Positions 8,202 through 54,807 of a DNA stretch of 61,235 bases are shown in pieces. A program made the translations under genes and the position numbers. Each line of letters starts with the position of its first letter. Within the stretch, counting starts at the first letter, position 1. This DNA is from Tabrizicola sp. (GTDB taxonomy: Bacteria; Pseudomonadota; Alphaproteobacteria; Rhodobacterales; Rhodobacteraceae), in assembly GCF_016792905.1 (NCBI RefSeq), contig NZ_JAEULP010000057.1:1-61235 (forward strand). The letters run 5' to 3'. The notes beneath the pieces are model-generated. The model searched no databases, had not been told where the DNA came from, and saw only the letters and a program-made list of their open reading frames with translations.

Positions 8202-8234
8202 CTTTCACATTTGCCCAAATATCCCCGCCGGAGG
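8202..8234 (-). repeat. Dispersed ATATTTGG/ATGAAAG repeat, copy 1
   Basis: On the minus strand it reads CCTCCGGCGGGG, then ATATTTGGGC, then AAATGTGAAAG. It lies between sitB and sitC in the orientation opposite to transcription. It has the short-arm form, with CCTCCGGCGGGG in place of the longer GC hairpin. Two further hairpins follow in the same gap: TCCGCG/CGCGGA at 8248-8266 and CCGACCC/GGGTCGG at 8315-8333, the second ending 2 bases before the sitC ATG. Confidence 0.8.
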
Positions 8235-8335
8235 CCGCCCGAGGTCTTCCGCGTTCTTCACGCGGAGGGCCGAGACAAAAGACTTGCGCGTCAGCGCTCA
8301 ATTCGAAAACCGCCCCGACCCGCGCGGGGTCGGCC

Positions 8336-9169
8336 ATGCTTGAACCCTTCGCCTACCAGTACATGACCAACGCCATGTGGGTCTCGGCGCTGGTCGGCGG
8401 CGTCTGCGGCTTTCTCTCGGCCTATCTGATGCTGAAAGGCTGGTCGCTGATCGGCGACGCCCTGTCCCACTCCGTCGTCCCCGGCGTGGCGGGGGCCTAT
8501 ATCCTCGGCCTGCCCTTCGCACTCGGCGCTTTCCTCTCGGGCGGCCTTGCCGCCGCCGCGATGCTGTTCCTGACCAACCGCACCGGCCTCAAGACCGATA
8601 CGGTGATCGGCCTGATCTTCACCTCGTTCTTCGGCCTCGGCCTGTTCCTGATCTCGATCTACCCGACCTCCGTCTCGATCCAGACCATCACCATGGGCAA
8701 CATCCTTGCCATTTCCCCCGGCGACACGGCTCAACTGGTGATCATCGGGGGCGTTTCCGCTGCCGTCCTCCTGATCCTCTGGAAGGACCTGATGGTCACC
8801 TTCTTCGACGAGGCGCACGCCCGCACCATCGGATTGCGGCCGGACGTGCTGAAGATCATCTTCTTCACCCTCCTTTCGGCCTCGACCGTCGCGGCGATGC
8901 AGACCGTGGGGGCGTTCCTCGTCGTCGCAATGGTCGTGACCCCCGGCGCCACCGCCTATCTCCTGACCGACCGCTTTCCCCGCCTTCTGGCGCTGGCTGC
9001 AACGATCGGTGCCGCGACCGGGGCCGTCGGGGCCTACATCAGCTATTTTCTCGACGGCGCGACCGGAGGCGTCATCGTCCTGCTCCAGACCGCGCTCTTC
9101 GCCCTGGCCTTCGTCTTCGCCCCGAAACACGGCCTTCTCGCCGCGAAAGCCCGGGCGAGGCAGGCATGA
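8336..9169 (+). CDS. sitC: Manganese/iron ABC transporter permease SitC
   Basis: A 277-residue integral membrane permease of the ABC-3 family. Repeated hydrophobic helices surround the family motifs LMLKGWSLIGDALSHSVVPG and PGATAYLLTDRF. It forms the inner-membrane channel with SitD. The ATG at 8336 has no visible Shine-Dalgarno and sits 2 bases after a GC hairpin, so its translation may be conditional or coupled. The 3' end overlaps sitD by ATGA. Confidence 0.92.
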   Translation: MLEPFAYQYMTNAMWVSALVGGVCGFLSAYLMLKGWSLIGDALSHSVVPGVAGAYILGLPFALGAFLSGGLAAAAMLFLTNRTGLKTDTVIGLIFTSFFGLGLFLISIYPTSVSIQTITMGNILAISPGDTAQLVIIGGVSAAVLLILWKDLMVTFFDEAHARTIGLRPDVLKIIFFTLLSASTVAAMQTVGAFLVVAMVVTPGATAYLLTDRFPRLLALAATIGAATGAVGAYISYFLDGATGGVIVLLQTALFALAFVFAPKHGLLAAKARARQA

Positions 9170-9987
9170 CCGACAGCCTCCTCCTCCCGTTCCAGTTCCC
9201 GTTCATGCAGAACGCCTTCTGGATCGCGCTGATCGTGGCACCCCCTTGCGCGCTTCTCTCCTGCTTCCTCGTGCTGAAGGGCTGGGCGCTGATGGGCGAT
9301 GCCGTCAGCCATGCCATCCTTCCCGGGATCGTGCTGGCCTACATGGCGGGAGTGCCCCTGCTGATCGGCGCCTTTGTCGCAGGGCTCGGCTCCGCGCTCC
9401 TGACCGGCTGGATTGCCGACAACAGCCGGATCAAGCGCGACACGGTGATGGGCGTGGTCTTCTCATCCATGTTCGCCTCGGGCGTGGTGCTGATCACGGC
9501 TTTCCCGACCGACATCCACCTGGACCACATTCTCTTCGGCAACATGCTGGGGGTGGGGCAGGGCGACCTGATCACTGCCGCCGCCATTGCCGGTCCCGTG
9601 ACCCTGATCCTGGCGCTGAAATGGCGCGACCTGATGCTCCATGCCTTCGACCCCGCCCAGGCCCAGGTCTCGGGCCTGCGGACGAGGCTTCTGCACTACG
9701 GGCTCCTCGCCGTGCTTGCCCTCACCATCGTCGCCACGCTGTCCTCGGTCGGCCTGGTGCTGGCCATCGGCCTCCTGATCGCGCCGGGGGCCATTGCTTT
9801 CCTCGTGACCCGCAGTTTCGGTGCCATGCTCGTCACGGCGACCGCGGTTTGCCTGCTGGCCATGCTTACGGGCATCTACTTAAGCTTCTTCCTCGACAGC
9901 GCCCCGGGGCCGACGATCATCCTGATCCTGACCACGATCTTCCTTGTGACCTTCCTGCGGCGGGTGCTTCAGGCCCGCAACGCCTGA
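9166..9987 (+). CDS. sitD: Manganese/iron ABC transporter permease SitD
   Basis: A 273-residue second permease, paralogous to SitC. It has LVLKGWALMGDAVSHAILPG near the N terminus and GLLIAPGAIAFLVTRSF later. It starts at ATG 9166, overlapping the sitC stop. Together with SitABC it makes a complete importer. A 41-base gap with no obvious terminator separates it from the following methyltransferase gene. Confidence 0.92.
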   Translation: MTDSLLLPFQFPFMQNAFWIALIVAPPCALLSCFLVLKGWALMGDAVSHAILPGIVLAYMAGVPLLIGAFVAGLGSALLTGWIADNSRIKRDTVMGVVFSSMFASGVVLITAFPTDIHLDHILFGNMLGVGQGDLITAAAIAGPVTLILALKWRDLMLHAFDPAQAQVSGLRTRLLHYGLLAVLALTIVATLSSVGLVLAIGLLIAPGAIAFLVTRSFGAMLVTATAVCLLAMLTGIYLSFFLDSAPGPTIILILTTIFLVTFLRRVLQARNA

Positions 9988-10028
9988 TCCGGCTTTACGA
10001 CACGGGTCCAAGCCCTTACCCATGACGC

Positions 10029-10835
10029 ATGACACAGCCGCCCACCGCCCTGACCCGCGCTGTCGACGCAGGCCTTGCCCGCGTCGCGGCCGAACCACCC
10101 GGACCGGACCGGCTTGCCGCCCAGTTGCGGCACCTGGCGAAATGGCGATCCATCGTGTTGGCCAACACGCTCGCGGCCCGCGAGGGTACCCGCGTCGCCA
10201 GCGGACCCTTCGCCGGGATGGACTATCCGGTCGCCGCGTCCGAAGGCGCCCGCGCGCCCAGGCTCCTGGGCATCTACGAATCCGCACTCCACCCGGTGAT
10301 CGAAAGCGTCATCGCCCGCGCCCCGGCCCAGGTGCTGGATGTGGGCTGTGCCGAGGGGTATTATGCCGTCGGTCTTGCCCGGCGCCTGCCCTCCGCACTG
10401 GTGCATGCCCGCGACACCGACGCCAGGGCACGCGCCCTGTGTGCCAGCCTCGCGCAGGCGAACGGGGTCGGGGACCGGCTTCGCATCGGCGGCGAAGTGG
10501 CGCACGCCGATTTTGCCCTGTGCGAGGCGGCACCGACCTTCCTGCTCTGTGACATCGAAGGCGCCGAGGCGGACCTGCTTGATCCCCGCCTTGCCCCGGC
10601 CCTGACCTGCGCCGACATTCTGGTCGAGGTTCACGAAGGCATGCGGCCCGGCCTTGTCGCCGCCCTGACCGGGCGTTTCACTGCCAGCCACCGCGTCACC
10701 AGGATCGACCGGCTGCTTCGTCCCGACCTCTTGCCCGACTGGTCCGAAACCCTGTCCGACCTCGACCGCCTGCTGCTGCTGTGGGAATGGCGCGCCACGC
10801 CGACGCCCTGGCTCTGGATGGAATGCCGCCAATGA
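10029..10835 (+). CDS. Class I SAM-dependent methyltransferase (FkbM-like)
   Basis: A 268-residue soluble protein. The SAM-binding motif I is VLDVGCAEGYYAVGLA (around residue 100), followed by an acidic motif II region and FLLCDIEGAEADLL, similar to FkbM-type methyltransferases. The substrate is not evident. It overlaps the downstream glycosyltransferase by ATGA, suggesting joint action on a glycan or exported polysaccharide. An alternative ATG lies at 10022 in another frame; 10029 is the only start that opens this frame fully. Confidence 0.82.
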   Translation: MTQPPTALTRAVDAGLARVAAEPPGPDRLAAQLRHLAKWRSIVLANTLAAREGTRVASGPFAGMDYPVAASEGARAPRLLGIYESALHPVIESVIARAPAQVLDVGCAEGYYAVGLARRLPSALVHARDTDARARALCASLAQANGVGDRLRIGGEVAHADFALCEAAPTFLLCDIEGAEADLLDPRLAPALTCADILVEVHEGMRPGLVAALTGRFTASHRVTRIDRLLRPDLLPDWSETLSDLDRLLLLWEWRATPTPWLWMECRQ

Positions 10836-12547
10836 CCGCCCCCGCCAATCCCGCCCCGTCCGGCCGCACCAATGCCGCAGTCTGGTTTTCGTCCGATGGC
10901 TACGATCCGGCCAAGAAGGGCATCAACGGCCGTCGCGTCGCCGGGGCAAGCTTCCTGCGCGGGTTCTTCGCCCATGGCGAGGTGGACGAATTCGTCGCCC
11001 TGGCCCATTCCCGGGCCGACCATACCGCCTTTGCCGATCTGGCGCGCGCCTCCGGCGTGACCCGGCCCTTGCGGCAGGTCCGGCTGGACGCGCCTCAGGG
11101 GCTCGCGCCGGTCGAGGTCGTCCAGTATCCCGCTCCGACCCCGCCGACCGAGTTCTGGCGCCGCGCGCCGCATGGCGCGGCGGCCTGGGCGCTGTGCGGG
11201 ATCACCCATACCACCGCGACGCGCAACGTGATGGAGACCGTCTTCCAGATGCGCTCGGCCCCGCAGATGCCCTGGGATGCGGTGATCTGCACCTCGGTTG
11301 CCGTGCAGGCTTCGATCCGCCGCCTGATGGAACTGGCCGAGGCGCATCTGGCGCAGCGCTATCGCGGCGCGGTCCTGCCCGCGCGACCGCTTCTTCCTGT
11401 GGTTCCGCTCGGTATCCACTGCGATGATTTCCGGCCCGATCCCGCGCTGGGACAGGCGCTGCGCGACCGGATCGGCGCCGACCCCGGTGATCTGGTCGTG
11501 GTCAGCATCGCTCGCCTGACGCCCGATGAAAAATTCGACCCGTTGCCGCTCTTCCTCGCCATGGAGCTTGCCGCGCAGGACTGGCGGGCACAGGGCGGGG
11601 GCAGGCTGCATCTGGTCTTGTGCGGCAAGTTCTCCGAAGCGCAGTGGGCCGACAGCTTTGCCAAGGCCGCCGCCCGGCTGATGCCCTCCTGCGGCTATCA
11701 TGTGCTCGACGGCGCCGATGCCGCCGAACGCAAGGCCACGCTTTCGGGCGGAGATGTCTTTGTCTTCCCGATCGACAACCTGCAGGAAACCTTCGGCCTC
11801 GCCCCGATCGAGGCGATGGCGGCGGGCCTGCCGGTGATCGTCTCCGACTGGGACGGGATGAAGGACACCGTGACCCCGGACGTGGGCTTCCGCATCCCGA
11901 CCGAACTGCCGCGCGCGGGGCTTTCGAGCTATGTCAGCCATCGCCACATGGGCGGAACCGACAGCTACATCCAGTATCTGAGCCAGGTCTCGGCGATGAC
12001 GCCGCTTGATGTCGCGGCCATGGCGCGCGCGCTGGTCACGCTCGCCCGCGATCCGGACCTGCGGGCGCGGATGGGGGCCAGGGCGCGCGACCGGGCGCGG
12101 CGGCTTTACGACTGGTCGGTGGTGATCCCGCAGATGCAGGCGCTCTGGGGCGAGCAGGCGGCGATGCTGGCCCATGCAAGAAGGGTCGGCGGCCCGGCCA
12201 TATCCCCGCACAGCGCCGATCTCATCCCGGTCGGTCCGGCGGTGCAAGAGATGTTTGCCGCCTACCCGACCTCGTTTTCCGACCCGGACCGTCGCCTGTC
12301 CGCAACCGGCCACCCGGACCAGCCTGCGCCACGCGAAACCTTCACGCTGCGCAACTACGCCGTTCGCGGCCGCCTCCTGGAAGATACATCCCGGATCGAG
12401 ACCGTCCTTGCCGCCTATGCGTCAGCGGGCCCCCGGGGCGCGACCGAGGCCGAGATCGCAGCGACCACGCGCCTTCCCCGCCTGATGGTCGCCCGGGTGT
12501 CGCTCTGGCTCCTGAAATACAACTACCTGCAAGAGGCCCGCACATGA
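10832..12547 (+). CDS. Glycosyltransferase family 4 with C-terminal extension
   Basis: A 571-residue GT-B glycosyltransferase. The GT4 domain shows VVSIARLTPDEKFDPL, then DVFVFPIDNLQETFGLAPIE with the E-x7-E-type nucleotide-sugar motif, then AMAAGLPVIVSDWDG. Beyond the catalytic part, roughly residues 475-571 form an extension ending in a segment (TEAEIAATTRLPRLMVARVS) that reads like a winged-helix or dimerisation fold. ATG 10832 makes an ATGA overlap with the methyltransferase and is preferred over the in-frame ATG at 10781. Acceptor and sugar donor are unknown. Confidence 0.85.
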   Translation: MTAPANPAPSGRTNAAVWFSSDGYDPAKKGINGRRVAGASFLRGFFAHGEVDEFVALAHSRADHTAFADLARASGVTRPLRQVRLDAPQGLAPVEVVQYPAPTPPTEFWRRAPHGAAAWALCGITHTTATRNVMETVFQMRSAPQMPWDAVICTSVAVQASIRRLMELAEAHLAQRYRGAVLPARPLLPVVPLGIHCDDFRPDPALGQALRDRIGADPGDLVVVSIARLTPDEKFDPLPLFLAMELAAQDWRAQGGGRLHLVLCGKFSEAQWADSFAKAAARLMPSCGYHVLDGADAAERKATLSGGDVFVFPIDNLQETFGLAPIEAMAAGLPVIVSDWDGMKDTVTPDVGFRIPTELPRAGLSSYVSHRHMGGTDSYIQYLSQVSAMTPLDVAAMARALVTLARDPDLRARMGARARDRARRLYDWSVVIPQMQALWGEQAAMLAHARRVGGPAISPHSADLIPVGPAVQEMFAAYPTSFSDPDRRLSATGHPDQPAPRETFTLRNYAVRGRLLEDTSRIETVLAAYASAGPRGATEAEIAATTRLPRLMVARVSLWLLKYNYLQEART

Positions 12548-13266
12548 CCCGTTCCATCCTGATCACCGGCGCCGGGGCAGGGATCGGCCGCGCCACCGCC
12601 CGCCTCTTCCTTGCCGAAGGCTGGGAGGTCACGCTCCTCGGCCGCCGCCGCGCGGCGCTTGAGGAAACCGCGAACGGCGCCCCGGCCCGCATCCTGATCG
12701 CCGACGTGGGCGACCCGGCCGACGTCGAAGCCGCTTTCGCGCAGCTTCCCCGCCTCGACGTCCTGTTCAACAACGCGGGCATCTCCGCCCCCGCCGCGCC
12801 GATCGACGAGATCCCGGTGGAAACCTGGCTTGATGTCATCCGCACCAACATCACCGGCATGTTCCTCTGCGCCCGCGCCGCCTTCGGCCTGATGCGACGC
12901 CAGTCCCCGCGGGGCGGGCGCATCATCAACAACGGCTCGATCTCGGCGCATGTCCCGCGCCCCGGCTCGACGCCCTATACCATGTCCAAGCATGCTGTGA
13001 CCGGCCTGACCCGGACGCTCGGCCTTGACGGGCGCGCCTTCGACATCGCCTGCGCGCAGATCGACATCGGCAATGCCCTGACCGACATGGCTGCAAGCTT
13101 CACCACGGGCGTTCCCCAGGCCAATGGCGACACCCGTGTCGAGCCGGTGATGGATGTGGACCACGTCGCAAGCATGGTCCTGCACATGGCCAGCCTGCCC
13201 CTGGAGGTGAACACGCCCTTCGTGACCATCATGGCGCGCGACATGCCCTATATCGGGCGCGGCTAG
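12544..13266 (+). CDS. SDR-family oxidoreductase
   Basis: A 240-residue classical short-chain dehydrogenase/reductase. It has a Rossmann NAD(P) motif GAGAGIGRATARL at residues 8-20, NNAG at the expected position, and catalytic Tyr-x3-Lys in TPYTMSKHAVTGL. It overlaps the upstream glycosyltransferase by ATGA, so the three genes 10029-13266 look like one coupled unit. Substrate is unknown; sugar-nucleotide or polyol modification would fit the context but is inference. Confidence 0.9.
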   Translation: MTRSILITGAGAGIGRATARLFLAEGWEVTLLGRRRAALEETANGAPARILIADVGDPADVEAAFAQLPRLDVLFNNAGISAPAAPIDEIPVETWLDVIRTNITGMFLCARAAFGLMRRQSPRGGRIINNGSISAHVPRPGSTPYTMSKHAVTGLTRTLGLDGRAFDIACAQIDIGNALTDMAASFTTGVPQANGDTRVEPVMDVDHVASMVLHMASLPLEVNTPFVTIMARDMPYIGRG

Positions 13267-13333
13267 CCAAGGTCCGGCAGCGGTTCGCCATTCCCCGCGT
13301 ACCGACCAAGGGCCGTGCCTCTCCGGATGCGGT

Positions 13334-13696
13334 TCAGACTGCGCGGGCGAACAGGTCGGGCAGGCGACGCAACAGCTGCAGAACCCGTGCGTCCTGGATC
13401 GAGTAGTAGATCGCCTTGCCCTCGCGGCGGGTGGCGACCATCCCCTCCAGCCGAAGCCGCGCGAGCTGCTGGCTGACCGCCGCCTGCCGCTGGCCCAGAA
13501 GCGCTTCCAGCTCGGTGACCGACCTCTCGCCGCCCGCAAGATGGCACAGGATCATCAGCCGCCCTTCATGGCTCAGGGCCTTCAGGAAATCAGCCACTTC
13601 CACCGACCGGTCCACGACCCGCCGCGCAATGTCACGGTCGTCAACCCGCTCGACGCCGACGGGAATGGCTCCGGGATTGAAACGCTCAAGCGACAT
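13334..13696 (-). CDS. ArsR-family winged-helix transcriptional regulator
   Basis: A 120-residue regulator. The ArsR winged helix includes LKALSHEGRLMILCHL, the recognition region LLGQRQAAVSQQLARLR, and the wing REGKAIYYSI. The motif around the single Cys (ILCHL) and AVSQQLARLR resemble the BigR/SqrR sulfide-responsive branch, but a second redox cysteine is not visible, so that assignment is weak. It is monocistronic, convergent with the SDR and divergent from the PHP gene. Confidence 0.88.
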   Translation of the reverse strand: MSLERFNPGAIPVGVERVDDRDIARRVVDRSVEVADFLKALSHEGRLMILCHLAGGERSVTELEALLGQRQAAVSQQLARLRLEGMVATRREGKAIYYSIQDARVLQLLRRLPDLFARAV

Positions 13697-13860
13697 GGCA
13701 CGACCTCACACAACTTCACATTGCAAGACGATAGCATGACCGCGATCCGGCCTCGACAGGCTCTTGTCGTTGCTTTCGCCGCCGGGCAAGGTTCCGCCGA
13801 ACCTCGGGCTGCGACTCTGCCGCCGCCGCGCCGGGCCGCTTGCACGAAGGAACCCGATCC

Positions 13861-16055: not shown

Positions 16056-16104
16056 TCGGAGGCCGACCCTCAGCCCGACTCCTCATGGCTAACACAACCT
16101 GAAA

Positions 16105-16160: not shown

Positions 16161-16166
16161 GGGAGG

Positions 16167-16184: not shown

Positions 16185-16200
16185 GCCCCGGCAAGCCCCC

Positions 16201-17911: not shown

Positions 17912-17966
17912 CCCCGGGGGCGCTTCGCCGCCCGGACCCCCGGAGGATATTTGGGCAAAGATGAAA
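17912..17966 (+). repeat. Dispersed ATATTTGG/ATGAAAG repeat, copy 2 (hairpin form)
   Basis: CCCCGGGGGCG-CTTCGCCGCCCGG forms a GC hairpin with a CTTCG loop. It is followed by ACCCCCGGAGG, the core ATATTTGGGC, then AAAGATGAAA. The core runs into the hutH stop codon. The element fills the hutH-hutU gap in the orientation opposite to transcription. Confidence 0.85.
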
Positions 17967-23662: not shown

Positions 23663-23718
23663 CCCCGGGGGCGCTTCGCCCCCCGGACCCCCAGAGGATA
23701 TTTTCAGACAGATGAAAG
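23663..23718 (+). repeat. Dispersed ATATTTGG/ATGAAAG repeat, copy 3 (hairpin form)
   Basis: CCCCGGGGGCG-CTTCGCCCCCCGG hairpin, ACCCCCAGAGG, then a diverged core ATATTTTCAGAC and AGATGAAAG. Its hairpin is almost the same as in copy 2. It lies in the divergent gap between the LysR gene and the flavoprotein gene at 23815. Confidence 0.8.
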
Positions 23719-26252: not shown

Positions 26253-26300
26253 CCGGGGGCCAGCCCCCGGACCCCCGGGATATTTGAACCAGTATGAAAG
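26253..26300 (+). repeat. Dispersed ATATTTGG/ATGAAAG repeat, copy 4 (hairpin form)
   Basis: CCGGGGGCCAGCCCCCGG (26253-26270) is a strong hairpin. It is followed by ACCCCCGGG, the core ATATTTGAACC, and AGTATGAAAG. It sits between the two DAO-GcvT genes in the same orientation as transcription and ends 9 bases before the downstream ATG. It therefore replaces the usual leader and could affect translation of paralogue 2. Confidence 0.85.
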
Positions 26301-29578: not shown

Positions 29579-31137
29579 CCGACATGCCCGACATCGGCGA
29601 AACCTGCGAACCCGCCCGCGCCCGCCGCTCCGGTGGCCGCCAGGCCCGCGTCGCCCTCCGCGCCGCCCCTCTGGCCGACGACGTGAAACCCGTCCGCGCA
29701 GGGCTCCCCGGCGGCCAGTACAAGCCCCTGACCGAGGCAGGCGTGCAGCAGATTCACGCCGCTGCCCTCGACGCGCTGGAACAGATCGGCCTCTCCCAGG
29801 CCCCGCCCTCGGGCGTCAAGCTCCTGACCGATGCGGGCGCGATCCAAGGAGCGGACGGCCGCATCCGCTTTCCCCGCGCGCTGGTCGAGGACATGCTGAC
29901 CGTGGCCGCCCGCAACATCACGCTCCACGCCCGCGACCCGAAGCAGGACCTGCACCTGACCGGCACCAACGTCCATTACGGCACCGCGGGCGCGGCGGTC
30001 CATATCGTCGACCCCGTCACCCTCGACTACCGCGAGTCGACCGCGCAGGACCTCTATGACGCGGCCCGCCTCGTCGACAACCTCGACAACATCCACTTCT
30101 ACCAGCGCACGATGGTCTGCCGGGACGTCACCGACAACAAGGAGATGGACCTCAACACGCTGTACGGCAGCCTTGCGGGCACCACCAAGCACGTCGGCAC
30201 CAGCTTCTCCGACCCCTCCCATGTCGCCGATTGTTTCGAAATGCTGCACATAGTTGCGGGGGGCGAGGAGAAATGGCTGGAACGCCCCTTCGTCTCCAAC
30301 TCCAACTGTTTCGTCGTCCCGCCGATGAAATTCGCGGAGGAAAGCTGCATCACCATGGAGGATTGCATCCGGCGCGGCATGCCGATGCTCCTCCTCTCTG
30401 CCGGTCAGGCCGGGGCCACCGCGCCCGCGCCGATCGCGCTGACCATCGTGCAGGCCGTCGCCGAATGCCTGGCGGGCGTGGTCTATGTCAACGCGATCAA
30501 GCCCGGGGCGCCCGCGATCTTCGGAACCTGGCCCTTCGTCTCCGACCTGCGTACCGGCGCCATGTCCGGGGGCAGTGCCGAACAGGCGCTCCTCACCGCA
30601 GGCTGCGCCCAGATGCACCGTTTCTACGACCTGCCCGGCGGCGCGGCCTCGGGGATCAGCGATTCGAAGCTTCCCGACATGCAGGCCGGATGGGAGCAGG
30701 GCATCACCAACGCGCTTGCCGGTCTCGCGGGCCTCAACATGTGCTACGAGGCGGTGGGGATGCACGCCTCGCTCCTCGGCTTCTGCCTCGAAAGCCTGGT
30801 CCTCGGCGACGACCTCCTCGGCCAGACCATGCGACTGGTGCGCGGCATCGACGTCACGCCCGACTCGACCAGCCTTGATGCGATGAAAGAAGTCTGCCTT
30901 GGCGGACCCGGCCATTACCTTGGGTCGGACCAGACGCTGAAGCTGATGCAGACCGAATACATCTACCCGAACGTGGGCAACCGCATGTCGCCGAAGGAAT
31001 GGAACGAGGCCGGCAAGCCGATCCTGCTCGACACCGCCATCGCCCGGAAGAACGCGATCCTGGCCAAGGCGGGTTGCCGGGTCGAGCCGGAGATTGACGC
31101 GGCGATCCGCAAGCGGTTCAATATCTACTTCCGGTAG
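29575..31137 (+). CDS. MttB-superfamily (trimethylamine/glycine betaine) methyltransferase, non-pyrrolysine
   Basis: A 520-residue protein with an Arg-rich N terminus and YKPLTEAGVQQIHAAALDAL, continuing through NVHYGTAGAAVHIVD. The segment aligned by eye with the pyrrolysine region of archaeal MttB (ASGISDSKLPDMQAGWE, around residues 358-374) has only sense codons, so this is a non-Pyl member like bacterial MtgB. MtgB demethylates glycine betaine to dimethylglycine using a corrinoid protein. No corrinoid protein or reactivator is encoded in the window. It starts in an ATGA overlap and ends the tightly coupled run. Confidence 0.88.
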   Translation: MTDMPDIGETCEPARARRSGGRQARVALRAAPLADDVKPVRAGLPGGQYKPLTEAGVQQIHAAALDALEQIGLSQAPPSGVKLLTDAGAIQGADGRIRFPRALVEDMLTVAARNITLHARDPKQDLHLTGTNVHYGTAGAAVHIVDPVTLDYRESTAQDLYDAARLVDNLDNIHFYQRTMVCRDVTDNKEMDLNTLYGSLAGTTKHVGTSFSDPSHVADCFEMLHIVAGGEEKWLERPFVSNSNCFVVPPMKFAEESCITMEDCIRRGMPMLLLSAGQAGATAPAPIALTIVQAVAECLAGVVYVNAIKPGAPAIFGTWPFVSDLRTGAMSGGSAEQALLTAGCAQMHRFYDLPGGAASGISDSKLPDMQAGWEQGITNALAGLAGLNMCYEAVGMHASLLGFCLESLVLGDDLLGQTMRLVRGIDVTPDSTSLDAMKEVCLGGPGHYLGSDQTLKLMQTEYIYPNVGNRMSPKEWNEAGKPILLDTAIARKNAILAKAGCRVEPEIDAAIRKRFNIYFR

Positions 31138-33298: not shown

Positions 33299-33305
33299 AG
33301 CGGCC

Positions 33306-33347
33306 AAATCTTTTCGAAAAGATTTGCAAATTCCTTCGAAGGAATTT
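33306..33347. terminator. Twin perfect 20-bp palindromes between convergent genes
   Basis: AAATCTTTTCGAAAAGATTT (33306-33325) and AAATTCCTTCGAAGGAATTT (33328-33347) are both perfect palindromes with TTCGAA centres, separated by GC. They are strikingly AT-rich for this chromosome. Each can form a hairpin on either strand with U/A-rich flanks. Their position 8 bases after the PLP-gene stop and 12 bases before the SDR stop suits a bidirectional terminator, though a binding site or repeat element is also possible. Confidence 0.65.
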
Positions 33348-34043: not shown

Positions 34044-34077
34044 GCCTCCGGCGGGGATATTTGGCCCAGTATGAAAG
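34044..34077 (+). repeat. Dispersed ATATTTGG/ATGAAAG repeat, copy 5
   Basis: GCCTCCGGCGGGG, core ATATTTGGCCC, then AGTATGAAAG: one of the closest copies to consensus, short-arm form. It lies between two minus-strand genes (SDR and DUF1801), opposite to transcription. Confidence 0.88.
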
Positions 34078-39602: not shown

Positions 39603-39655
39603 CCGGGGGTTTCACACCCCCGGATCCCCGCGGGATAATTGGACAAATGTGAAAG
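39603..39655 (+). repeat. Dispersed ATATTTGG/ATGAAAG repeat, copy 6 (hairpin form)
   Basis: CCGGGGGTTTCACACCCCCGG hairpin (39603-39623, loop TTTCA or similar), then ATCCCCGCGGG, a core with one change (ATAATTGGAC) and AAATGTGAAAG. It fills the mlaF-pqiA gap opposite to transcription. Its GTTTCACACCCC arm is shared with copy 8. Confidence 0.85.
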
Positions 39656-44258: not shown

Positions 44259-44267
44259 AACCCCCGC

Positions 44268-47761: not shown

Positions 47762-47850
47762 GGCCCGGCAGGTAACGCAAACCCGACCCCGTTTCCAGTG
47801 GCATCGCATGTCATCCTGCGACAGGATCGCCGCAGTTGAAGGAGACCCCG

Positions 47851-48249: not shown

Positions 48250-49163
48250 ACCGTCTCGCCCGTCAGTTCCGCGAGCCTGCGGGCAAAGCGCGGCGCATTC
48301 AGCCGCGCCGTGACCGACCGGCAGATCTTCACTTCGCGCTTCGGATGCCCGGAAAGCCGCGCCGCCGCGAGCACGGCACCCAGATAGCTCCCGTTCGACC
48401 GCCGCCCGCGCCAGAGCCAGGAAAACCGCTCTTCCGACAGGTTCCCCTCCATCGCCGCCTCAAGGATCCGGTCCAGCACCTTCATCTCGCGCAGGGTGTC
48501 CTCGGTCCCCTCGCCGGTATAGCGGGCGTGCAAGGGCGTCACCCAGGGTCGCTGGAACAGGGCTGCATGCATCGCGTCCGGCTGGTGCAGCGGATCATGG
48601 ATCAGCCAGACCTTCGAAGCGCTTTCCGTCATGTCCGGGGCATAGCCGTAACGGCCGCGGAAGTTGATCCGCCGGGCGATCCGGTGCCGTTCGTCCCAGC
48701 CCGCAAGGGCGGGGTCCAGCGTGGCGCGGGGCGCGACCAGCACCAGTTCCGCCTGGGGCGCGGTGATCGAATAGGCCGCCGCCGCATAGCCCGCGGGCCC
48801 CGCGCCATAGAACACCACCCGGTCGAAATCCTCCAGGAACCCGTCGTCGGCCAGCCGGTCGAAATAGCGGAACACCGCCGGGTCGCGCCACCAGGTCTCG
48901 CCCTCGGCCAGGATCGTCAGGAGCGACCAGCCCCGGTTCTGCGCCAGGGTGAAATGCTCCGGCAGTTTGTCGTCGCGCTCGCGCAGGGTGGCCGCGTCCT
49001 CGAAGGTGACCAGCAGCACCGGGCGCTCTTCCGCGAAGAAGGCGTAGTGCTTGTCGCCGAGCGGCAGAAAGTCGCCATCGCCTTCGGCGATCCGCAGCAT
49101 GCGGCGCTGCCAGTCAGGGGGCTGGATCGGATTTGTCACGGAAGGGGTGTCAGTCTTGGGCAT
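48246..49163 (-). CDS. Conserved protein of unknown function, alpha/beta-hydrolase-like
   Basis: A 305-residue cytosolic protein. I see VVFYGAGPAGYAAAAYSI around residue 115, reminiscent of a nucleophile-elbow or Rossmann turn. It is followed by LVLVAPRATLDPALAGWDER and the C-terminal basic segment SGHPKREVKICRSVTARL. Similar proteins in Rhodobacteraceae have carried unreliable labels such as PAPS reductase; none of the expected motifs is visible. Function unknown. It overlaps the end of the LprI-like gene by 4 bases. Confidence 0.7.
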   Translation of the reverse strand: MPKTDTPSVTNPIQPPDWQRRMLRIAEGDGDFLPLGDKHYAFFAEERPVLLVTFEDAATLRERDDKLPEHFTLAQNRGWSLLTILAEGETWWRDPAVFRYFDRLADDGFLEDFDRVVFYGAGPAGYAAAAYSITAPQAELVLVAPRATLDPALAGWDERHRIARRINFRGRYGYAPDMTESASKVWLIHDPLHQPDAMHAALFQRPWVTPLHARYTGEGTEDTLREMKVLDRILEAAMEGNLSEERFSWLWRGRRSNGSYLGAVLAAARLSGHPKREVKICRSVTARLNAPRFARRLAELTGETV

Positions 49164-49323
49164 GGCGGGGCTCGATGCCGCGACTCTGGCGAGAGAATGC
49201 GGCCTCTACAAGACCTTGCGGTGGAAACATTTGCGTCGGCTACACGCTTCAGGCGCGCAATCCTGCACCATTCCGGGATCGCGTCAACCAAAGGTTGCAA
49301 TCCTGCCGTATTCGCCAATGAGG

Positions 49324-50349
49324 TCAGGTCCGTCTGACGAACGGCTTCCAGATCGACTCGGCCTGGGCCTGGTCCAGCACGCGCGTCGGCCCCGCCATCA
49401 GCAACTGGCCGTAAAGACTGCGCCAGGCGTCGCCGCGCATCAGAGCCTTGAAGCGGTCCTCGCGCCACGCGACCGCCGCGCGGTGGAGTGGCCCGAGCAC
49501 CGGGTCGGCCTGCAGCGTCGCGCGCAGACCGCGACTGTCCAGTTTCAGGATCGAGCGGTCCTCCTCGGCGTCGAAGTTCCGCTCCACCCAATACCCGACA
49601 TCCAGCCCCGTATCCTCATGCACCGCGCGCCCGCGATCGCGCTTCAGAAGGAAGCTCTGCGCCGCTCCCAGAGCATAGTGGTTCAGCTGAACCATCGCAT
49701 GATTGTCCCGCCCGAGGTCGGAAAAGATCCGCCCCCGGTGAAATGCGGCGGGCAGGATCCGCCCGGACCCGTCATACCAGCGCTGGCCGGCCTGCTGCTC
49801 CGCCACCTGAGCGCGCGGCCGATGCACTCCAAGCTTGCGGAAGCTGCCGTCATTCTTCACCAGCGTCTTGAACAGCGCCGCGCGCCACGGCCAATGCAGC
49901 ACTTTCGGGGCCGCCCGGGTGAAGGTCTCGGTCACGGGGACATCGCGGTAGTCCAGCACTCCGGCATTGCCGAACAGCCGCCAGGTCAGCGTCACCGCCG
50001 TCGCGCCCGGAAGGGCGGCCAGCAGGGCGGGCAGGGTTCGGTTGCCGACATGCACGTTGACAAACTCGTCGATGTCCAGCGGCAAAAGCCAGTCGGCCCC
50101 CGTCACCAACGGATGCCGGTCCGCTTGCTTCAGCGCCGACCATTGCGGCCCCTCGGGATGCGGCCCCGGATTGGGCAAATGCGTCAGCCAGCCCATCGCT
50201 TCCAGCCGACCGAGCATCGCATCGGTGCCATCGTCGCAGTCGTTGGAGAAGACCAGGAAATCCGTGATCCCGGCAGCCCGGTGATGCGCCAGCCATTCCA
50301 GCAGGAACGCGCCCTCGTTGCGCACACAAAGGACAGCCGTGATCTTCAC
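49324..50349 (-). CDS. GT2-like glycosyltransferase
   Basis: A 341-residue protein starting VKITAVLCVRNEGAFLLEWL, the typical opening of family 2/GT92-like enzymes. It contains a DxD-like LLPLDIDEFVNV, consistent with metal-nucleotide-sugar binding. No membrane anchor is visible. The start is GTG 50349. The in-frame ATG at 50424 would add 25 residues translated from a dispersed repeat (its YFGQYES stretch) and is rejected. Donor and acceptor unknown. Confidence 0.85.
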   Translation of the reverse strand: MKITAVLCVRNEGAFLLEWLAHHRAAGITDFLVFSNDCDDGTDAMLGRLEAMGWLTHLPNPGPHPEGPQWSALKQADRHPLVTGADWLLPLDIDEFVNVHVGNRTLPALLAALPGATAVTLTWRLFGNAGVLDYRDVPVTETFTRAAPKVLHWPWRAALFKTLVKNDGSFRKLGVHRPRAQVAEQQAGQRWYDGSGRILPAAFHRGRIFSDLGRDNHAMVQLNHYALGAAQSFLLKRDRGRAVHEDTGLDVGYWVERNFDAEEDRSILKLDSRGLRATLQADPVLGPLHRAAVAWREDRFKALMRGDAWRSLYGQLLMAGPTRVLDQAQAESIWKPFVRRT

Positions 50350-50359
50350 CGCACTTGCG

Positions 50360-50393
50360 CTTTCATACTGGCCAAAATATCCCCGCCGGAGGC
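50360..50393 (-). repeat. Dispersed ATATTTGG/ATGAAAG repeat, copy 7
   Basis: On the minus strand: GCCTCCGGCGGGG, core ATATTTTGGCC, then AGTATGAAAG. It ends 10 bases before the glycosyltransferase GTG, in the same orientation as transcription. It is preceded by GGCGGCGGA, giving a small CGGAG/CTCCG hairpin. Confidence 0.85.
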
Positions 50394-50468
50394 TCCGCCG
50401 CCCGCCAAGAGGCGCGCCGGTCAAGGGGTTAGCACGACCCGCGCCGCAGCCAAATCAGAAAACGCGCC

Positions 50469-51473
50469 TCACCCCGCCTTCCGGTTGACCCGCGCCCGCT
50501 TCGCCGCGAACCGCGCCTCCATCCGCGCCTGCGCCTCGGGCGAGCCGTCATGCCAGGTCCCGAACAGATAGTCGAAGGGCACCACGCCATCGGCATAGTT
50601 CACCTCGAAATACTTGTGGTGCAGGTAATGCGTGTAGGCCGGTGTATCGAGGGCACCTTCGCCCAGCTCGATCTTGTCAAACCCGATATGCCCGCCCGCC
50701 GCACCGAAGCCCGCGAAATGCAGCTGGTACAGCGCAAGGACAGGGTTCGACGGCAGGATCAGGTGCCAGAGCATCACGCCGAAATAGGCCAGCGCCTCGA
50801 TGGGGTGCATCGACAGGGACGACCAGGGCGAGGGGTTGACCGAGTTGTGGTGGACCGAGTGGATCCATTTGTAGAGGACCGGAATATGGATCAGGCGGTG
50901 GATGAGGTAGAAATGCGCCTCGTGCAGCATCGGCACGAAGACGAAGACCAGCCCCACCAGCACCGGATGTTCGGCGAACCCCAGCCAGGGCGCATAGCCG
51001 TTGGCATAGGCCCAGAGCATCCCGACCTCGACTGCCGTCCAGGACCCGACGCCGATGCTCAGCGTGCGGACCGCGTTGTCGATGTTCTGGCTGCCGAACC
51101 AGAACACGTCCGATTTCTGGTCGCCGGGAAACTTGCCGTTGTACTTGAACCGGGTGCCTTGCGCCCGCTGCCAGTAAAGCCGCAGCTCGAAAGCCCCGTA
51201 GTACAGCGCAATCGCCACCGCATTGATCAGGTACAGCCGCAGCACCCAGCCCCAGGACAAAGTCTTCAGGGTTTCGGTGTCCGGAATGACAAAGCGCCAC
51301 CACAGAAGTGCAGTCGCGAAGAAGAACAGGCTCCAGGGCCAGAAATAGCCCGGTACACATTTCAGGATCTTAACCGGATCGGGCTGCCGGGACCAGAATG
51401 GCGCGATGTCCAGCCTTTTGTCCGGCGCCCGGTCGCCCCGCTTGTTGCGCTTGCCGAATTGCAGATCGTCCAT
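50469..51473 (-). CDS. Sterol desaturase/fatty acid hydroxylase-family protein
   Basis: A 334-residue integral membrane di-iron enzyme. Histidine boxes are HEAHFYLIHRLIH, HSVHHNS and HYLHHKYFE, in the order and spacing of the FA_hydroxylase family. Several hydrophobic helices precede them. Substrate could be a sterol, carotenoid or fatty chain; the window does not decide. ATG 51473 is used; an in-frame TTG at 51494 would add seven residues over a G tract. The next gene downstream is the GT2-like gene. Confidence 0.88.
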   Translation of the reverse strand: MDDLQFGKRNKRGDRAPDKRLDIAPFWSRQPDPVKILKCVPGYFWPWSLFFFATALLWWRFVIPDTETLKTLSWGWVLRLYLINAVAIALYYGAFELRLYWQRAQGTRFKYNGKFPGDQKSDVFWFGSQNIDNAVRTLSIGVGSWTAVEVGMLWAYANGYAPWLGFAEHPVLVGLVFVFVPMLHEAHFYLIHRLIHIPVLYKWIHSVHHNSVNPSPWSSLSMHPIEALAYFGVMLWHLILPSNPVLALYQLHFAGFGAAGGHIGFDKIELGEGALDTPAYTHYLHHKYFEVNYADGVVPFDYLFGTWHDGSPEAQARMEARFAAKRARVNRKAG

Positions 51474-51586
51474 GGGCCCCCCCCGTTTGCTCAATATTTA
51501 GCGTTAAACTAATGAGTCGGGAAGCGAAAAACCGCGAAGCCGATCGTCGGCTCCGCGGCTCTTGGGAGGGGCAATCCAGCCTGTCG

Positions 51587-52807
51587 TCAGAAGAACGCCT
51601 GCAACCCGGTGATCGCGCGCCCAAGGATTAGCGCATGGATGTCATGCGTGCCCTCGTAGGTGTTCACCGTCTCCAGGTTCACCATGTGGCGCATGATCTG
51701 GAAATCCTCCTGGATGCCGTTGCCGCCATGCATGTCGCGCGCCCAGCGGGCCGCTTCCAGCGCCTTGCCGCAGTTGTTGCGCTTGATGAGGGAAATCATC
51801 TCCGGCGCGGCATTGGCCTCGTCCATCAGCCGCCCGACCCGCAGGCAGGCCTGAAGCCCGAGCGAAATCTCGGTCAGCATGTTGGCCAGCTTCAGCTGGA
51901 AGATCTGCGTCCCGGCGATGGGCTTGTTGAACTGCTTCCGATCCAGCCCGTACTGCCGCGCCGCCGCCATGCAGAACTCGGCCGAGCCCATCACGCCCCA
52001 GGCGATGCCATAGCGTGCCCGGTTCAGGCAGCCGAACGGGCCCTTCAGCCCCTCGACATGCGGCAGCAGCGCGTCCTCGCCGACTTCCACGTCCTTCAGC
52101 ACGATCTCGCCGGTGATCGAGGCGCGCAGGGAAAGCTTGCCCCCCACCTTCGGCGCCGACAGGCCCTTGGTGCCCTTGTCCAGCACAAAGCCCTTGATCT
52201 TGCCGCCATGCGCCTCGGACTTGGCCCAGACCACGAAGACATCGGCGATGGGCGCGTTCGAAATCCACATCTTGGCGCCGTTCAGCACATAGCCGTTCGC
52301 GGTCTTCTTCGCCGTGGTCTTCATCCCCGCCGGGTCCGAGCCTGCATCCGGTTCGGTCAACCCGAAGCAGCCGATCCACTCGCCCGACGCCAGCTTCGGC
52401 AGGTATTTCCTGCGCTGTCCTTCCGTGCCATAGGCATAGATCGGGTACATCACCAGCGACGACTGTACCGACATCATGCTGCGGTAGCCCGAATCGACCC
52501 GCTCGACCTCGCGCGCCACCAGTCCGTAAGCCACATAGGAGGCGCCGAGCCCGCCGTATTCCTCCGGGATCGTCACGCCCAGAAGGCCCATCTCGCCCAT
52601 CTCGCGGAAGATCGCCGGATCGGTCTTCTCTTCCCGGTAGGCGGCGATGACCCGGCTTTGCAGCTTCTCCTGCGCATAGGCCCGCGCCCCGTCGCGCAGC
52701 ATCCGCTCTTCCTCGGTCAGCTGGTCGTTCAGCCGGAAGGGGTCTTCCCAGTCGAAGCGGCCCAGATCGGGGGCATCCTTGGCTTTCAGCTTGGGCTTGT
52801 CGGTCAT
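51587..52807 (-). CDS. gcdH: Glutaryl-CoA dehydrogenase
   Basis: A 406-residue acyl-CoA dehydrogenase that oxidatively decarboxylates glutaryl-CoA to crotonyl-CoA (lysine/tryptophan degradation). The catalytic base is Glu385 in [18 protein letters not shown]. The substrate region [16 protein letters not shown] and the FAD segment [13 protein letters not shown] are typical of GcdH. The FAD-dependent protein is cytosolic. It is divergent from a LysR gene with a 90-base shared promoter. The CoA-transferase often found beside gcdH is absent. Confidence 0.95.
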
Positions 52808-52881
52808 GACATGTCTCCTTCTTTGCGCGGGATCATTGCAGAAAAGGGCAGGGCAGGCTATCGAAAGCCCTGCACGGGTTC

Positions 52882-52896
52882 ATGAGGGAAACTCAT
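52882..52896. promoter_or_regulatory. LysR-type operator between gcdH and its regulator
   Basis: ATGAG (52882-52886), GGAAA, CTCAT (52892-52896) is a perfect 5-5-5 inverted repeat in the divergent promoter. It ends one base before the LysR start codon. The site also supplies the purine run GAGGGAAA that would be the ribosome binding site. Autoregulation plus gcdH control is the natural reading. Confidence 0.6.
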
Positions 52897-52897
52897 A

Positions 52898-53848
52898 ATG
52901 CTGCCCCGCCGCTACCTGCCGCCGATCCCCGCCCTGATGGCGCTGGAGGCGGTCGACCGCCTCGGCACGGCCTCTGCCGCCGCCGAAGAGCTGAACCTGA
53001 CGCAAGGTGCCATCAGCCGCGCCCTGCAGGGGCTGGAGGCGCAGCTCGGCATCCGCCTGATCCGCCGCGAACGCCAGCGCCTGCACCTGACCCCCGCAGG
53101 CCAGGACTACGTCGCCGAGGTCCGCAAGGCGCTGAACCTCCTCGCCTCCGCGTCCATCACCCTCCGCGCCAACCCGACCGGCGGCTCCCTCAACCTCGCG
53201 ATCCTGCCCGCCTTCGGCATGCACTGGCTCGCCCCCCGCCTCGCCCGCTTCGCGCAAAACCACCCGGAAGTCACCGTCAACCTCTCCACAAGGCTAAGAC
53301 CCTTCGACTTCGCCGGCACCGCCTTCGACGCCGCCATCCACTATGGCAGACTTGATGGGGGCCGCCAGGACTGGCCCGGTGTCCACTACCTGAAACTCAT
53401 GGAGGAAGAGGTCCTCGCCGTCGCCGCCCCCGGCTTCCCGGCGCTGACGCAAGCCACCGACATCCTGCGCCACCCCCTCCTGCAACTCGAATCCCGCACC
53501 GGCGACTGGGGCCGCTGGCTTGCCCACCATGGCCACGCGGGCCTCCGCCCTCCCGGCATGATGTTCGACCAGTTCGCCACGCTCACCCAGGGCGCGATCC
53601 ACGGCATGGGCGCCGCCCTGATCCCCACCTTCCTGATCCAGCGCGAACTCTCCGAAGGCCGCCTGGTCCCGGTCTTCGGCCCCCCCGTCGCCGCCCTCGG
53701 CTCCTACTACCTCGTCTGGCCGCAGGCCCAACCGGAACGCGCCCCCCTCCGCTCCCTGCGACTTTGGTTGCAGGCCGAGGCCGCCGATCCCGCCTTGACC
53801 CCCGCCCCCCCGCCCGCCACTCTGCCGCCAAGACCGGAGGCCCCGTGA
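52898..53848 (+). CDS. LysR-family regulator, GcvA/GcdR-like
   Basis: A 316-residue LysR protein. The N terminus MLPRRYLPPIPALMALEAVDR and helix-turn-helix ASAAAEELNLTQGAISRALQ are of the GcvA subgroup. An effector domain follows, with a Pro-rich tail (PALTPAPPPATLPPRPEAP). Divergent from gcdH, so probably its regulator, responding to glutarate or glutaryl-CoA by analogy. The 3' end overlaps the MoxR gene by GTGA. Confidence 0.9.
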   Translation: MLPRRYLPPIPALMALEAVDRLGTASAAAEELNLTQGAISRALQGLEAQLGIRLIRRERQRLHLTPAGQDYVAEVRKALNLLASASITLRANPTGGSLNLAILPAFGMHWLAPRLARFAQNHPEVTVNLSTRLRPFDFAGTAFDAAIHYGRLDGGRQDWPGVHYLKLMEEEVLAVAAPGFPALTQATDILRHPLLQLESRTGDWGRWLAHHGHAGLRPPGMMFDQFATLTQGAIHGMGAALIPTFLIQRELSEGRLVPVFGPPVAALGSYYLVWPQAQPERAPLRSLRLWLQAEAADPALTPAPPPATLPPRPEAP

Positions 53849-54750
53849 CCGCACTCCCCGCCAGCATCGACGCCGTCGAGACCCTGCTCGCGTCGCAGGG
53901 CTACGTCGCCTCCCGCGCGCTCGCGACCGTGGTCTTCCTTTCCCTCAAACTCGGCCGTCCGCTCTTCCTCGAAGGCGAGGCCGGCACCGGCAAGACCGAG
54001 ATCGCCAAGACCCTCGCCACCGCGCTCAACCGCCGCCTGATCCGCCTGCAATGCTACGAAGGCCTCGACGCCGCTTCCGCCGTCGCCGAATGGAATTTCG
54101 CCGCCCAGATGATCGCCATCCGCACCGCCGAGGCGACCGCAGACCGCGGCACGCTCCAGAGCGAGCTTTTCACCGAAGACTACCTGATCGAACGCCCGCT
54201 CCTCGCCGCCATGCGCCCGCAGCCGGGCGGCGCCCCCGTCCTTCTCATCGACGAGCTTGACCGCACCGACGAACCCTTCGAGGCCTTCCTCCTCGAAGCC
54301 CTCTCGGATTTCCAGGTCACCATCCCGGAACTCGGCACCATCCGCGCCCCCGAACCTCCCATCGTCATCCTGACCTCGAACCGCACGCGCGAGGTCCACG
54401 ACGCCCTGAAACGCCGCTGCCTCTACCACTGGGTCGACTACCCCAGCTTCGACCGGGAACTGCAAATCCTCCACTCCCGCGCCCCCGAGGCGCGCGAAAC
54501 CCTTTCCCGCGAAGTGGTCGCCTTCGTCCAGAAGCTTCGCCGCGAGGACCTGTTCAAGCGCCCCGGCGTCGCCGAAACCATCGACTGGGCCAAATGCCTG
54601 CTCGCCCTCGATGTCATCGCGCTGTCGCCCGAGGTCATCTCCGACACGCTCGGCGCGATCCTGAAATACCAGGACGACATCCAGAAACTGCAAGGCTCCG
54701 AGGCCAAACGCCTTCTCGACGAAGTCAAACGCGAACTGGCCCCCGCATGA
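53845..54750 (+). CDS. MoxR-family AAA+ ATPase (CoxD-like)
   Basis: A 301-residue AAA+ chaperone. Walker A GEAGTGKTEIAK (Gly44-Lys50), Walker B VLLIDELDRTDE, and sensor region ILTSNRTREVHDALKRR. MoxR proteins act with VWA proteins to mature metalloenzymes; with a CoxE-like VWA gene next door this is the CoxD/CoxE type used for Mo-Cu CO dehydrogenase and relatives. Start GTG 53845 overlaps the LysR stop. A dispersed repeat separates it from the VWA gene. Confidence 0.92.
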   Translation: MTALPASIDAVETLLASQGYVASRALATVVFLSLKLGRPLFLEGEAGTGKTEIAKTLATALNRRLIRLQCYEGLDAASAVAEWNFAAQMIAIRTAEATADRGTLQSELFTEDYLIERPLLAAMRPQPGGAPVLLIDELDRTDEPFEAFLLEALSDFQVTIPELGTIRAPEPPIVILTSNRTREVHDALKRRCLYHWVDYPSFDRELQILHSRAPEARETLSREVVAFVQKLRREDLFKRPGVAETIDWAKCLLALDVIALSPEVISDTLGAILKYQDDIQKLQGSEAKRLLDEVKRELAPA

Positions 54751-54753
54751 CCA

Positions 54754-54807
54754 TTCATACTGGTCCAAATATCCCACGGGGAGCGCGAGGGGTGTGAAAC
54801 CCCTCGC
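54754..54807 (-). repeat. Dispersed ATATTTGG/ATGAAAG repeat, copy 8 (hairpin form)
   Basis: On the minus strand: GCGAGGGG-TTTCACAC-CCCTCGC hairpin (54785-54807), GCTCCCCGTGGG, core ATATTTGGACC, then AGTATGAA. It fills the MoxR-VWA gap, opposite to transcription. A GTG inside the hairpin (54794) opens the VWA frame early, but ATG 54815 is the likely start. Confidence 0.88.

Follow-up and report, generated by a model that had tools for sequence, protein, structure and literature searches.

Background

Short repeats that lie between genes have been described in several bacterial systems, and the repeat considered here is best understood next to them. It occurs eight times in a 61 kb stretch of the Tabrizicola sp. 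genome (contig NZ_JAEULP010000057.1, positions 1 to 61,235), and this whole stretch is what we call the window. The genome itself (G000) is 3,788,555 bases in 91 contigs. At the level of sequence we establish a family of copies, their numbers, their clade limits, their intergenic placement in both directions, their mostly fixed sites, their swapped cassettes and dialects, and the covariation of a third strand with a hairpin. The reading we favor, and to which we give an even chance of being right, is a mosaic intergenic DNA repeat specific to one bacterial family. It would be similar to the bacterial interspersed mosaic elements (BIMEs), have no known transposase, and its long type would be able to fold as an intrastrand triplex.

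DNA uptake sequences are short repeats with species dialects that shift in concert at kept sites. They are far more numerous than the repeat of the window and often lie within genes, whereas our repeat has about 100 copies and 86 of the 89 placed ones are intergenic. In E. coli the BIMEs and repetitive extragenic palindromes (REPs) are positioned in operons. The repeat is like them in being an extragenic mosaic of short palindromic motifs with about 100 or more copies, and in forming inverted pairs in some genomes (compared with the accessible text of PMC2817692). It differs from them in three ways: a search of 18 copy-rich genomes gave no Y1 transposase, its sites and direction are mostly fixed, and it has an asymmetric core with dialects.

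A second group to consider is the CGTC-tagged REPs, as described in the accessible text of PMC3733652. They occur in all alphaproteobacterial orders, so the Rhodobacterales may be among them; six Rhodobacterales names that we looked for are absent from that text. They have stems of 8-9 bp, loops of 4-5 nt, a terminal CGTC (or TGTC, CCTC) and a short CCA-like tail, and they are mainly head-to-head dimers. Like our repeat they are short, palindromic, mostly alphaproteobacterial and without a dedicated transposase. The third strand sets our repeat apart, as none is described for them in that text.

The third comparison is with the TM_ECO and ITxF motifs of Holder et al. 2015 (PMC4666352, again in its accessible text). 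These are also many-copy intergenic repeats without strand bias, in which three consecutive strands are capable of forming a purine-motif triplex. Their loci are more variable than controls, and an earlier test cited there found no promoter or terminator activity. The repeat here has another sequence and would be class I on its complementary strand, not class II. It usually has 5 layers and a 7-nt loop, and it goes together with an AT-rich core and with variants that lack a third strand. The ITxF search was limited to stems of 6-15 triads and loops of 1-6 nt. Since 84 of 119 purine runs in our repeat have a length of 5 and the usual loop has 7 nt, most of it lies outside these limits and such a search would miss much of the family. 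Six Rhodobacterales or alphaproteobacterial names that we looked for are absent from the main text of that paper.

Copy number and anatomy

The copies far exceed what chance would give. With up to one mismatch the core GGATATTTNNNNMANNNTGAA has 99 matches in the genome, of which 68 are exact and the other 31 carry the mismatch, and our control, the same pattern read backwards, has 0. With up to two mismatches there are 117 matches vs 2 for the control. The excess is real, but the expectation of hundreds of copies per genome was too high, as the core patterns give about 100-115. The window is about 5 times denser than the genome as a whole (8 copies in 61 kb, which is 1.6% of the genome, vs 99 in 3.79 Mb).

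We laid out 98 distinct copies of this genome with their flanks. Judged from these, the element is a mosaic: a GC-rich hairpin cassette is followed by a 24-nt AT-rich core cassette, sometimes with an upstream module. Most hairpin cassettes are of two kinds, the short arm GCCTCCGGCGGGG and a long stem (for example CCGGGGG-TTTCACA-CCCCCGG) with ACCCCC after it. The cores have GGATATTT in common with few changes, and their right halves vary (CCAGTATGAAAG, CAAATGTGAAAG, CAAAGATGAAAG, CCAGGTGAAAG, ACAGATGAAAG). By eye the core is roughly dyad-symmetric, with a right half that pairs weakly with ATATTTG. No constant GTAG end motif was seen by eye in the 98 copies; GGAG is present in the complement of the short arm. 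The upstream module carries further hairpins, whose stems vary with compensation. It was found in 33 copies of the DNA we fetched, copy 1 of the window among them, and this DNA (566,742 bases) was selected around core matches, so it is no random sample. A protein-coding reading of the module was dropped because of the compensated stem variation and because copies differ by 2 nt (by eye).

As in REPs and REPINs, the element is high-copy, extragenic and imperfectly palindromic, with 99 core matches, 86 of 89 placed copies between genes, and hairpin arms. As in BIMEs, several short motifs are variably present, namely the upstream module in its 33 copies and the several types of hairpin and core.

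Some copies are arranged in pairs. Tandem copies lie 59-113 bases apart at six loci (L004, L020, L036, L037, L052, L002), and in 5 of these 6 pairs the first copy is of the CCAGTATGAA type and the second of the CAAAGATGAA or CAAATGTGA type. There is also an inverted pair in this genome (L064, G000 C87:5709-5792) with the same core, GGATATTTAGTCCAGTATGAA, in both arms.

The third strand

The 119 long-type copies have one geometry. A purine run is followed by a loop, the complementary run, two outer pairs, a linker base, a third strand and then the core. The loop is usually TTTCACA, 7 nt, and the linker base is A in 108 of the 119. The length of the third strand tracks that of the purine run. 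Runs of 6 have a third strand of 6 in 25 of 28 copies and runs of 7 have one of 7 in 6 of 6. For runs of 5 the agreement is 61 of 84, a count blurred by a possible following A.

The letters of the three strands also change together. When the run is pure G the third strand is all C in 92 of 98 copies. There are 21 runs that hold an A, and in 17 of these the third strand is the exact parallel complement; an antiparallel complement in register is found in 0. The remaining 4 are GGGAGGG with CCCACCC (3 copies) and one GGGGGGAGG whose third strand is cut short. The classes with A are GGAGGG/CCTCCC, GAGGGG/CTCCCC, GGGGAGG/CCCCTCC, GGAGGGG/CCTCCCC, GGGAGGG/CCCACCC and GGGGGGAGG/CCCCCCT. The position of the odd base matches in 6 of 6 classes (permutation p 0.003). 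An exact parallel complement follows 91 of 98 hairpins with a core vs 3 of 178 hairpins without one, and one of those 3 lies beside a decayed core.

Searches in other genomes give the same picture. The GAGGGG cassette has 6 matches in three other genomes of the bacterial family and 2 in G000 when 295 genomes are searched, along with two further matches that are unrelated. The third strand of those 8 copies is CTCCCC in 7 and TTCCCC in 1. CCCTC in strand 2 is present in 62 copies from 26 of 130 relatives. Their third strand is CCTCCC in 56 and CCACCC in 2 (G125, G138); one has CTCCC with another stem (G028) and 3 have other changes (G022, G129, G133). A strand 2 with T in its third position has four matches in the 130 relatives, three of them without the element and one an apparent misfit in G135. 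It must be noted that the A-containing cassettes go back to shared descent or to copying, and that these counts include orthologues.

A parallel complement mirrors strand 2. Copying, direct or inverted, yields no mirrors, but a triplex requires one. In the long-type copies only, the order and the letters of the strands would permit a three-strand triplex on one strand. From these letters the element strand would give the pyrimidine motif, while its complement would give the purine motif, which is class I of Holder et al. (accessible text of PMC4666352). The purine motif also accepts T opposite A, so it covers CCCACCC, where the pyrimidine motif wants T. In our own reading of the E. coli triplex sequences listed in the accessible part of that paper, A.A-T and T.A-T both occur at odd positions.

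One can imagine a scenario where RNA is what matters. A transcript hairpin with its third strand, or competing hairpins of strand 1 with 2 and strand 1 with 3, would then protect or regulate the mRNA. The compensated variation of the stems fits this, and if the register is shifted, strand 3 of the GGAGGG stems can also form 5 antiparallel pairs. The antiparallel pairing is short for GAGGGG/CTCCCC and is in register in 0 of 21; the alternative hairpin of strands 1 and 3 is thus the weaker explanation of the third strand. Both gene-relative directions are used, and the right RNA would then come from some of the sites only. An Rfam search of the window copies gave no family match at E up to 1. 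We consider an RNA element unlikely.

Carriers of the repeat

The exact arm CTCCGGCGGGGATATTT is present in 67 of 120 genomes of the bacterial family (one per genus, our own included) with up to 76 copies, and its controls are all 0. Outside the family, none of 207 genomes that represent 148 families of the same class has it. The class survey covered 210 genomes, of which only our own was positive; two further members of the family had no matches. This is what one expects of the clade-specific dispersed intergenic repeat that had been predicted. All named carriers are Rhodobacterales: Tabrizicola, Rhodobacter, Pseudorhodobacter, Cypionkella and Gemmobacter, and on plasmids Cereibacter, Paracoccus, Ruegeria, Phaeobacter, Dinoroseobacter and others. 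Matches in Streptomyces, Kitasatospora (E 1) and Embleya end before ATATTT. In the phage collection there were only two weak matches to the long type, inside a capsid gene.

The genera keep the arm but have a right half of their own, such as GACACATGATG in G063, CCAAGAAGTG in G001 and GAGCAAAAGATG in G093. G063 also has inverted pairs about 110 bases long (L105-L111), and in most of these the variable bases agree between the arms.

A search for Y1_Tnp (PF01797), the domain of the REP-associated tyrosine transposases (RAYTs), at E <= 0.001 matched 0 of the 18 copy-rich genomes; transposases of other families were not searched. It matched 1 of 35 genomes overall, and that genome (G029) has no copies by the arm pattern. 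As a positive control the search matched 5 of 14 named genomes. Since the repeat does not pass the RAYT test and is mostly outside the ITxF limits, we do not class it as a member of the REP/REPIN group.

Fixed sites across the genus

We compared the orthologous regions (60 kb, one of 40 kb) of seven genomes of the same genus, numbering the window copies 1 to 8 by position. The relatives have 43 intergenic copies and 2 more inside called genes. Of the 43, 32 were mapped to the window, 7 are not syntenic and 4 are unmapped. In 31 of the 32 the gap and the direction are identical to those of the window copy. Five of the 32 belong to copy 6 and were matched by hand, as its ATAATT in the window escaped the pattern. 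The remaining copy is from G129 and is absent from the corresponding window gap.

From the side of the window the comparison was feasible for 7 of 8 sites; copy 7 has no anchor pair in any genome, and sites in G120 and G126 without both anchors were left unjudged. The copy 1 site is present in 4 of 5 relatives with both anchors and absent in G124. The copy 2 and copy 3 sites are each present in 6 of 6 relatives with both anchors. Copy 4 is present in 4 relatives and replaced by another palindrome in G126; G129 and G142 were not judged. The copy 5 site has the element in 7 of 7 relatives, and across genera too, with many core types. Most relatives have GGAGGG/CCCTCC/CCTCCC stems at the copy 6 site; no copy was seen there in G142, where 400 of about 536 bases were viewed. 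Copy 8 is present in 6 of 7 relatives, and G129 has a clean empty site in which the two genes overlap as TGATG.

The copy 4 gap of G126 (L176-L177) is an observation in its own right. A different palindromic pair, GGTGCGCTATAGCGCACC and GGTGCGCTGTAGCGCACC, stands there in place of the element.

These sites bear on whether the repeat is a miniature mobile element, of REP/REPIN type or another, that is still moving. The copies are short and palindromic, some are in tandem, and G063 has its long inverted pairs. The empty site of G129, with its overlapping genes, and the one G129 copy missing from the window gap are also what movement would leave. Yet 31 of 32 mapped copies keep their site and direction, and the 18 copy-rich genomes have no Y1_Tnp match, other transposase families being outside that search. 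We think current movement very unlikely. The suggestion that the repeat is similar to REPs or to miniature inverted-repeat transposable elements is thus right for position and architecture, and a poor fit in so far as it implies a Y1 transposase or copies that move at present.

Cassette swapping and dialects

The sites are mostly fixed, but what fills them is not. In several genera the copy 5 site has an element in the same direction whose hairpin is short, long or unclear and whose cores are unlike, for example GGATATTTGGGCAAATGTGAAAG and GAGTATTTTTGAAAAGAGCAAATG. The cores differ even between the sister sequences L190 and L189. We counted the minimum number of changes at this site on a tree of the neighbor gene. 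The hairpin type changes at least 16 times (58 rows), the left dinucleotide 14 times (55 rows) and the right half about 24 times (55 rows). The tree rows are the window and 57 loci. These come from 71 viewed out of 80 loci, with the 14 that have no clear element and the other 9 left out. L204, L243 and L250 did not parse and were scored as hairpin "none", and L190 was misclassed in the right half, hence 24 is approximate. It was a quick tree in which 16 of 55 inner branches are weak, and the change counts have no shuffled control.

Each species also has its own dialect. Our genome has CCAGTATGAA in 39 of 79 copies and CCAGAATGAA in 0, while G124 has CCAGAATGAA in 8 of 25 and CCAGTATGAA in 0. 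Several core types coexist within one genome, and the copies are homogenized within the genome. Fixed sites together with homogenization within a genome point to copies that are copied into each other where they stand, rather than transposed to new sites.

A DNA-binding protein (a nucleoid protein, gyrase or a regulator) whose preferred core drifts between species would be another way to get dialects. The rough dyad symmetry of the core, which was judged by eye, suggests such a site, as does a right half that differs among genera and is homogenized within species. Against this, one genome holds several core types and there is no candidate protein. Nor do the 65 copies on the G124 chromosome obey a clean strand rule; they come in runs of one strand without a clean two-arm split (the 20 samples of GC skew are noisy). 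A protein site is in our view improbable.

Gene surroundings and direction

The 89 of 98 distinct copies that lie in larger loci were placed relative to genes with a self-trained gene caller. Between two genes sit 86 of them, 2 are within a called open reading frame and 1 is at the edge of a locus. As was originally proposed, gene overlap is therefore not behind the similarity of the copies. The 86 are 34 sense, 27 antisense, 20 convergent and 5 divergent. There is no preference of direction in codirectional gaps (34 vs 27, binomial p 0.44). Divergent gaps are rarer than convergent ones (5 vs 20, p 0.004). Smaller samples from other genomes gave 7 of 9 sense and 1 convergent in G001, 10 of 19 convergent in G063 and 5 of 11 convergent in G093.

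In the window the pairs ABC ATPase/ABC-3 permease, lyase/urocanase, the oxidoreductase-GCV_T pair and AAA/CoxE-like VWA look like operon partners from their domains. We also fetched 14 plasmid loci, 11 of which have annotated neighbors on both sides. Six of the 11 are sense: nirJ-nitrite reductase, dgcN-dgcA, magnesium chelatase H-bchL, nrdE-nrdF, enoyl-CoA hydratase-acyl-CoA dehydrogenase and bchY-bchZ. Three are antisense (rfbA-epimerase, gcvH-gcvP, meaB-rpmB), 1 is convergent and 1 divergent.

It is worth asking if the copies are a family of transcription terminators, in which a GC hairpin and then ATATTT would act on the upstream gene of the same strand. A hairpin followed by an AT-rich tract has the right look. 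The excess of convergent over divergent gaps is in favor of this, as are the placements in G063 and in G001, where a terminator-like sense position fits 7 of 9 copies. A terminator should lie downstream of the gene it ends and sense to it. But 27 of 61 codirectional copies in our genome are antisense, and so are 3 of 9 at the plasmid loci. The ATATTT of long copies is about 8-12 nt past the stem. The use of both directions and the presence in operon-like gene pairs argue against a plain terminator, and a strong one would hardly be tolerable within such pairs. Termination, which the original prediction had raised, is highly doubtful as the main role. The idea of a promoter in the reverse direction was rejected, since in 54 of 86 placed copies such a promoter would face the 3' end of the adjoining gene.

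In the 80 loci around the copy 5 site the short pattern has 70 matches (42 antisense), the long pattern 55 (30 antisense) and the reversed control 3. These loci were selected around one site, so we made no use of the counts for direction.

Proposed mechanism

We return to the BIME-like mosaic repeat with a long type able to fold as a triplex. In the long type, the stretch after the hairpin would lie along the purine strand of the stem as a third strand and make an intrastrand triplex. Single-stranded DNA at these sites may fold, stall replication or repair, and provoke repair or template switching. A folded copy that is repaired from another copy would then have its cassettes swapped while the element stays where it is. 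Any effect on the host would be independent of orientation, for example an intergenic hairpin that tunes transcript stability or coupling. Orientation would be irrelevant if the effect is at the DNA level or if the hairpin works in either transcript. The full proposal is that a non-transposing genome-wide repeat swaps cassettes at fixed sites, that its own triplex folding drives the swapping, and that the species-specific core dialects are the outcome. We offer this tentatively and think it more apt to be wrong than right.

Several points weigh against these proposals. We infer gene conversion from its outcomes; the triplex would have to fold within cells, its physical formation is a prediction, and any function is putative. 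Shared descent and copying leave only about six independent classes of covariation. The purine run is 5 long in 84 of the 119 long-type copies, which gives five layers only. On the element strand, C+.G-C layers would form only with protonation. A triplex cannot be what maintains the whole family, because the short-arm copies lack a third strand. There are misfits as well: the three GGGAGGG/CCCACCC copies, CCACCC in 2 of 62, three other altered strands, one TTCCCC, 6 of 98 pure-G runs, and the G135 copy, whose strand 2 holds CCTCC and is followed by C alone. The fixed direction at each site could also reflect a function that is specific to direction. Finally, the E. coli intrastrand triplex was shown to fold in vitro, whereas footprinting in vivo gave no support for a stable triplex (accessible text of PMC4666352).

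If the proposal is true, the three-strand covariation would be evolutionary evidence that, in living bacteria, a DNA triplex is visible to selection or to the process of copying. Evidence for triplexes in living bacteria is thin, and letters of three strands that change together across copies are rarely available from sequence. The family also separates the site, which is mostly fixed, from the content, which is swapped. This makes it a natural series on how dispersed copies stay alike without transposing. The element occurs in well-studied marine and photosynthetic bacteria between bchY-bchZ, gcvH-gcvP and nrdE-nrdF, where its effect is directly testable. Our literature search, literal sequence strings included, found no published description of the repeat; most subscription journals were outside its scope.

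Copies in the window

All eight predicted copies were found at their coordinates and strands, and their neighbor genes were identified by Pfam. Five were said to have a long hairpin with an ACCCCC-like tract (17912, 23663, 26253, 39603, 54754) and three the short arm (8202, 34044, 50360), and this is correct. The tract varies, with GCTCCCC in the copy at 54754 and ATCCCC in the one at 39603. The core was predicted to end in AGTATGAAAG. This ending occurs, but it is merely one among several: AGTATGAA ends 4 of the 8 window cores (with AG next in 3), AAATGTGAAAG 2, AAAGATGAAA 1 and ACAGATGAAAG 1.

Copy 1 had been placed at 8202-8234 on the minus strand. It is real, but that is only the 3' end of a longer composite at 8201..8315 (-). 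The composite is antisense to both of its neighbors, which are genes for an ABC ATPase and an ABC-3 permease. Its order is the upstream module (GGGCGGTTTTCGAATTGAGCGC..TTTGTCTCG), a variable hairpin, CTCGG, the short arm CCTCCGGCGG and the core GGATATTTGGGCAAATGTGAAAGG. Copy 2 (17912..17966, +) is of the long hairpin type with a core that ends in CAAAGATGAAA, and it is antisense to both flanking genes, one for an aromatic amino acid lyase and one for a urocanase. Copy 3 (23663..23718, +) has the long hairpin and lies in the divergent gap between a LysR gene and a FAD-dependent oxidoreductase-GCV_T gene. Copy 4 (26253..26300, +), also long, is sense and occupies the whole gap between two FAD-dependent oxidoreductase-GCV_T genes.

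Copy 5 (34044..34077, +) has the short arm and is antisense, immediately 5' of a short-chain dehydrogenase gene. Copy 6 (39603..39655, +) has the long hairpin and is antisense to its neighbors, an ABC ATPase gene on one side and a PqiA-like gene on the other. Copy 7 (50360..50393, -) is of the short arm type and is sense, 5' of a glycosyltransferase gene. Copy 8 (54754..54807, -) is of the long hairpin type; the genes on its two sides, to which it is antisense, encode an AAA ATPase and a CoxE-like VWA protein. Its stem is GCGAGGGG..CCCCTCGC, and its third strand CTCCCC (54778..54783, -) is the parallel complement of the purine run GAGGGG of the stem (54800-54805).

Other features of the window

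The Rfam model PYLIS_3 has a match above its gathering score at 30655-30754 (+), inside a trimethylamine methyltransferase (MTTB) gene. The frame of this gene is open for 520 aa without a stop. The match is probably a similarity of coding sequence and not a sign of pyrrolysine use. Another repeat is found at 33305-33347 in a convergent gap. It consists of two adjacent perfect palindromes with TTCG centers, and among the matches listed near-identical 43-base copies occur in many places within the same genus.

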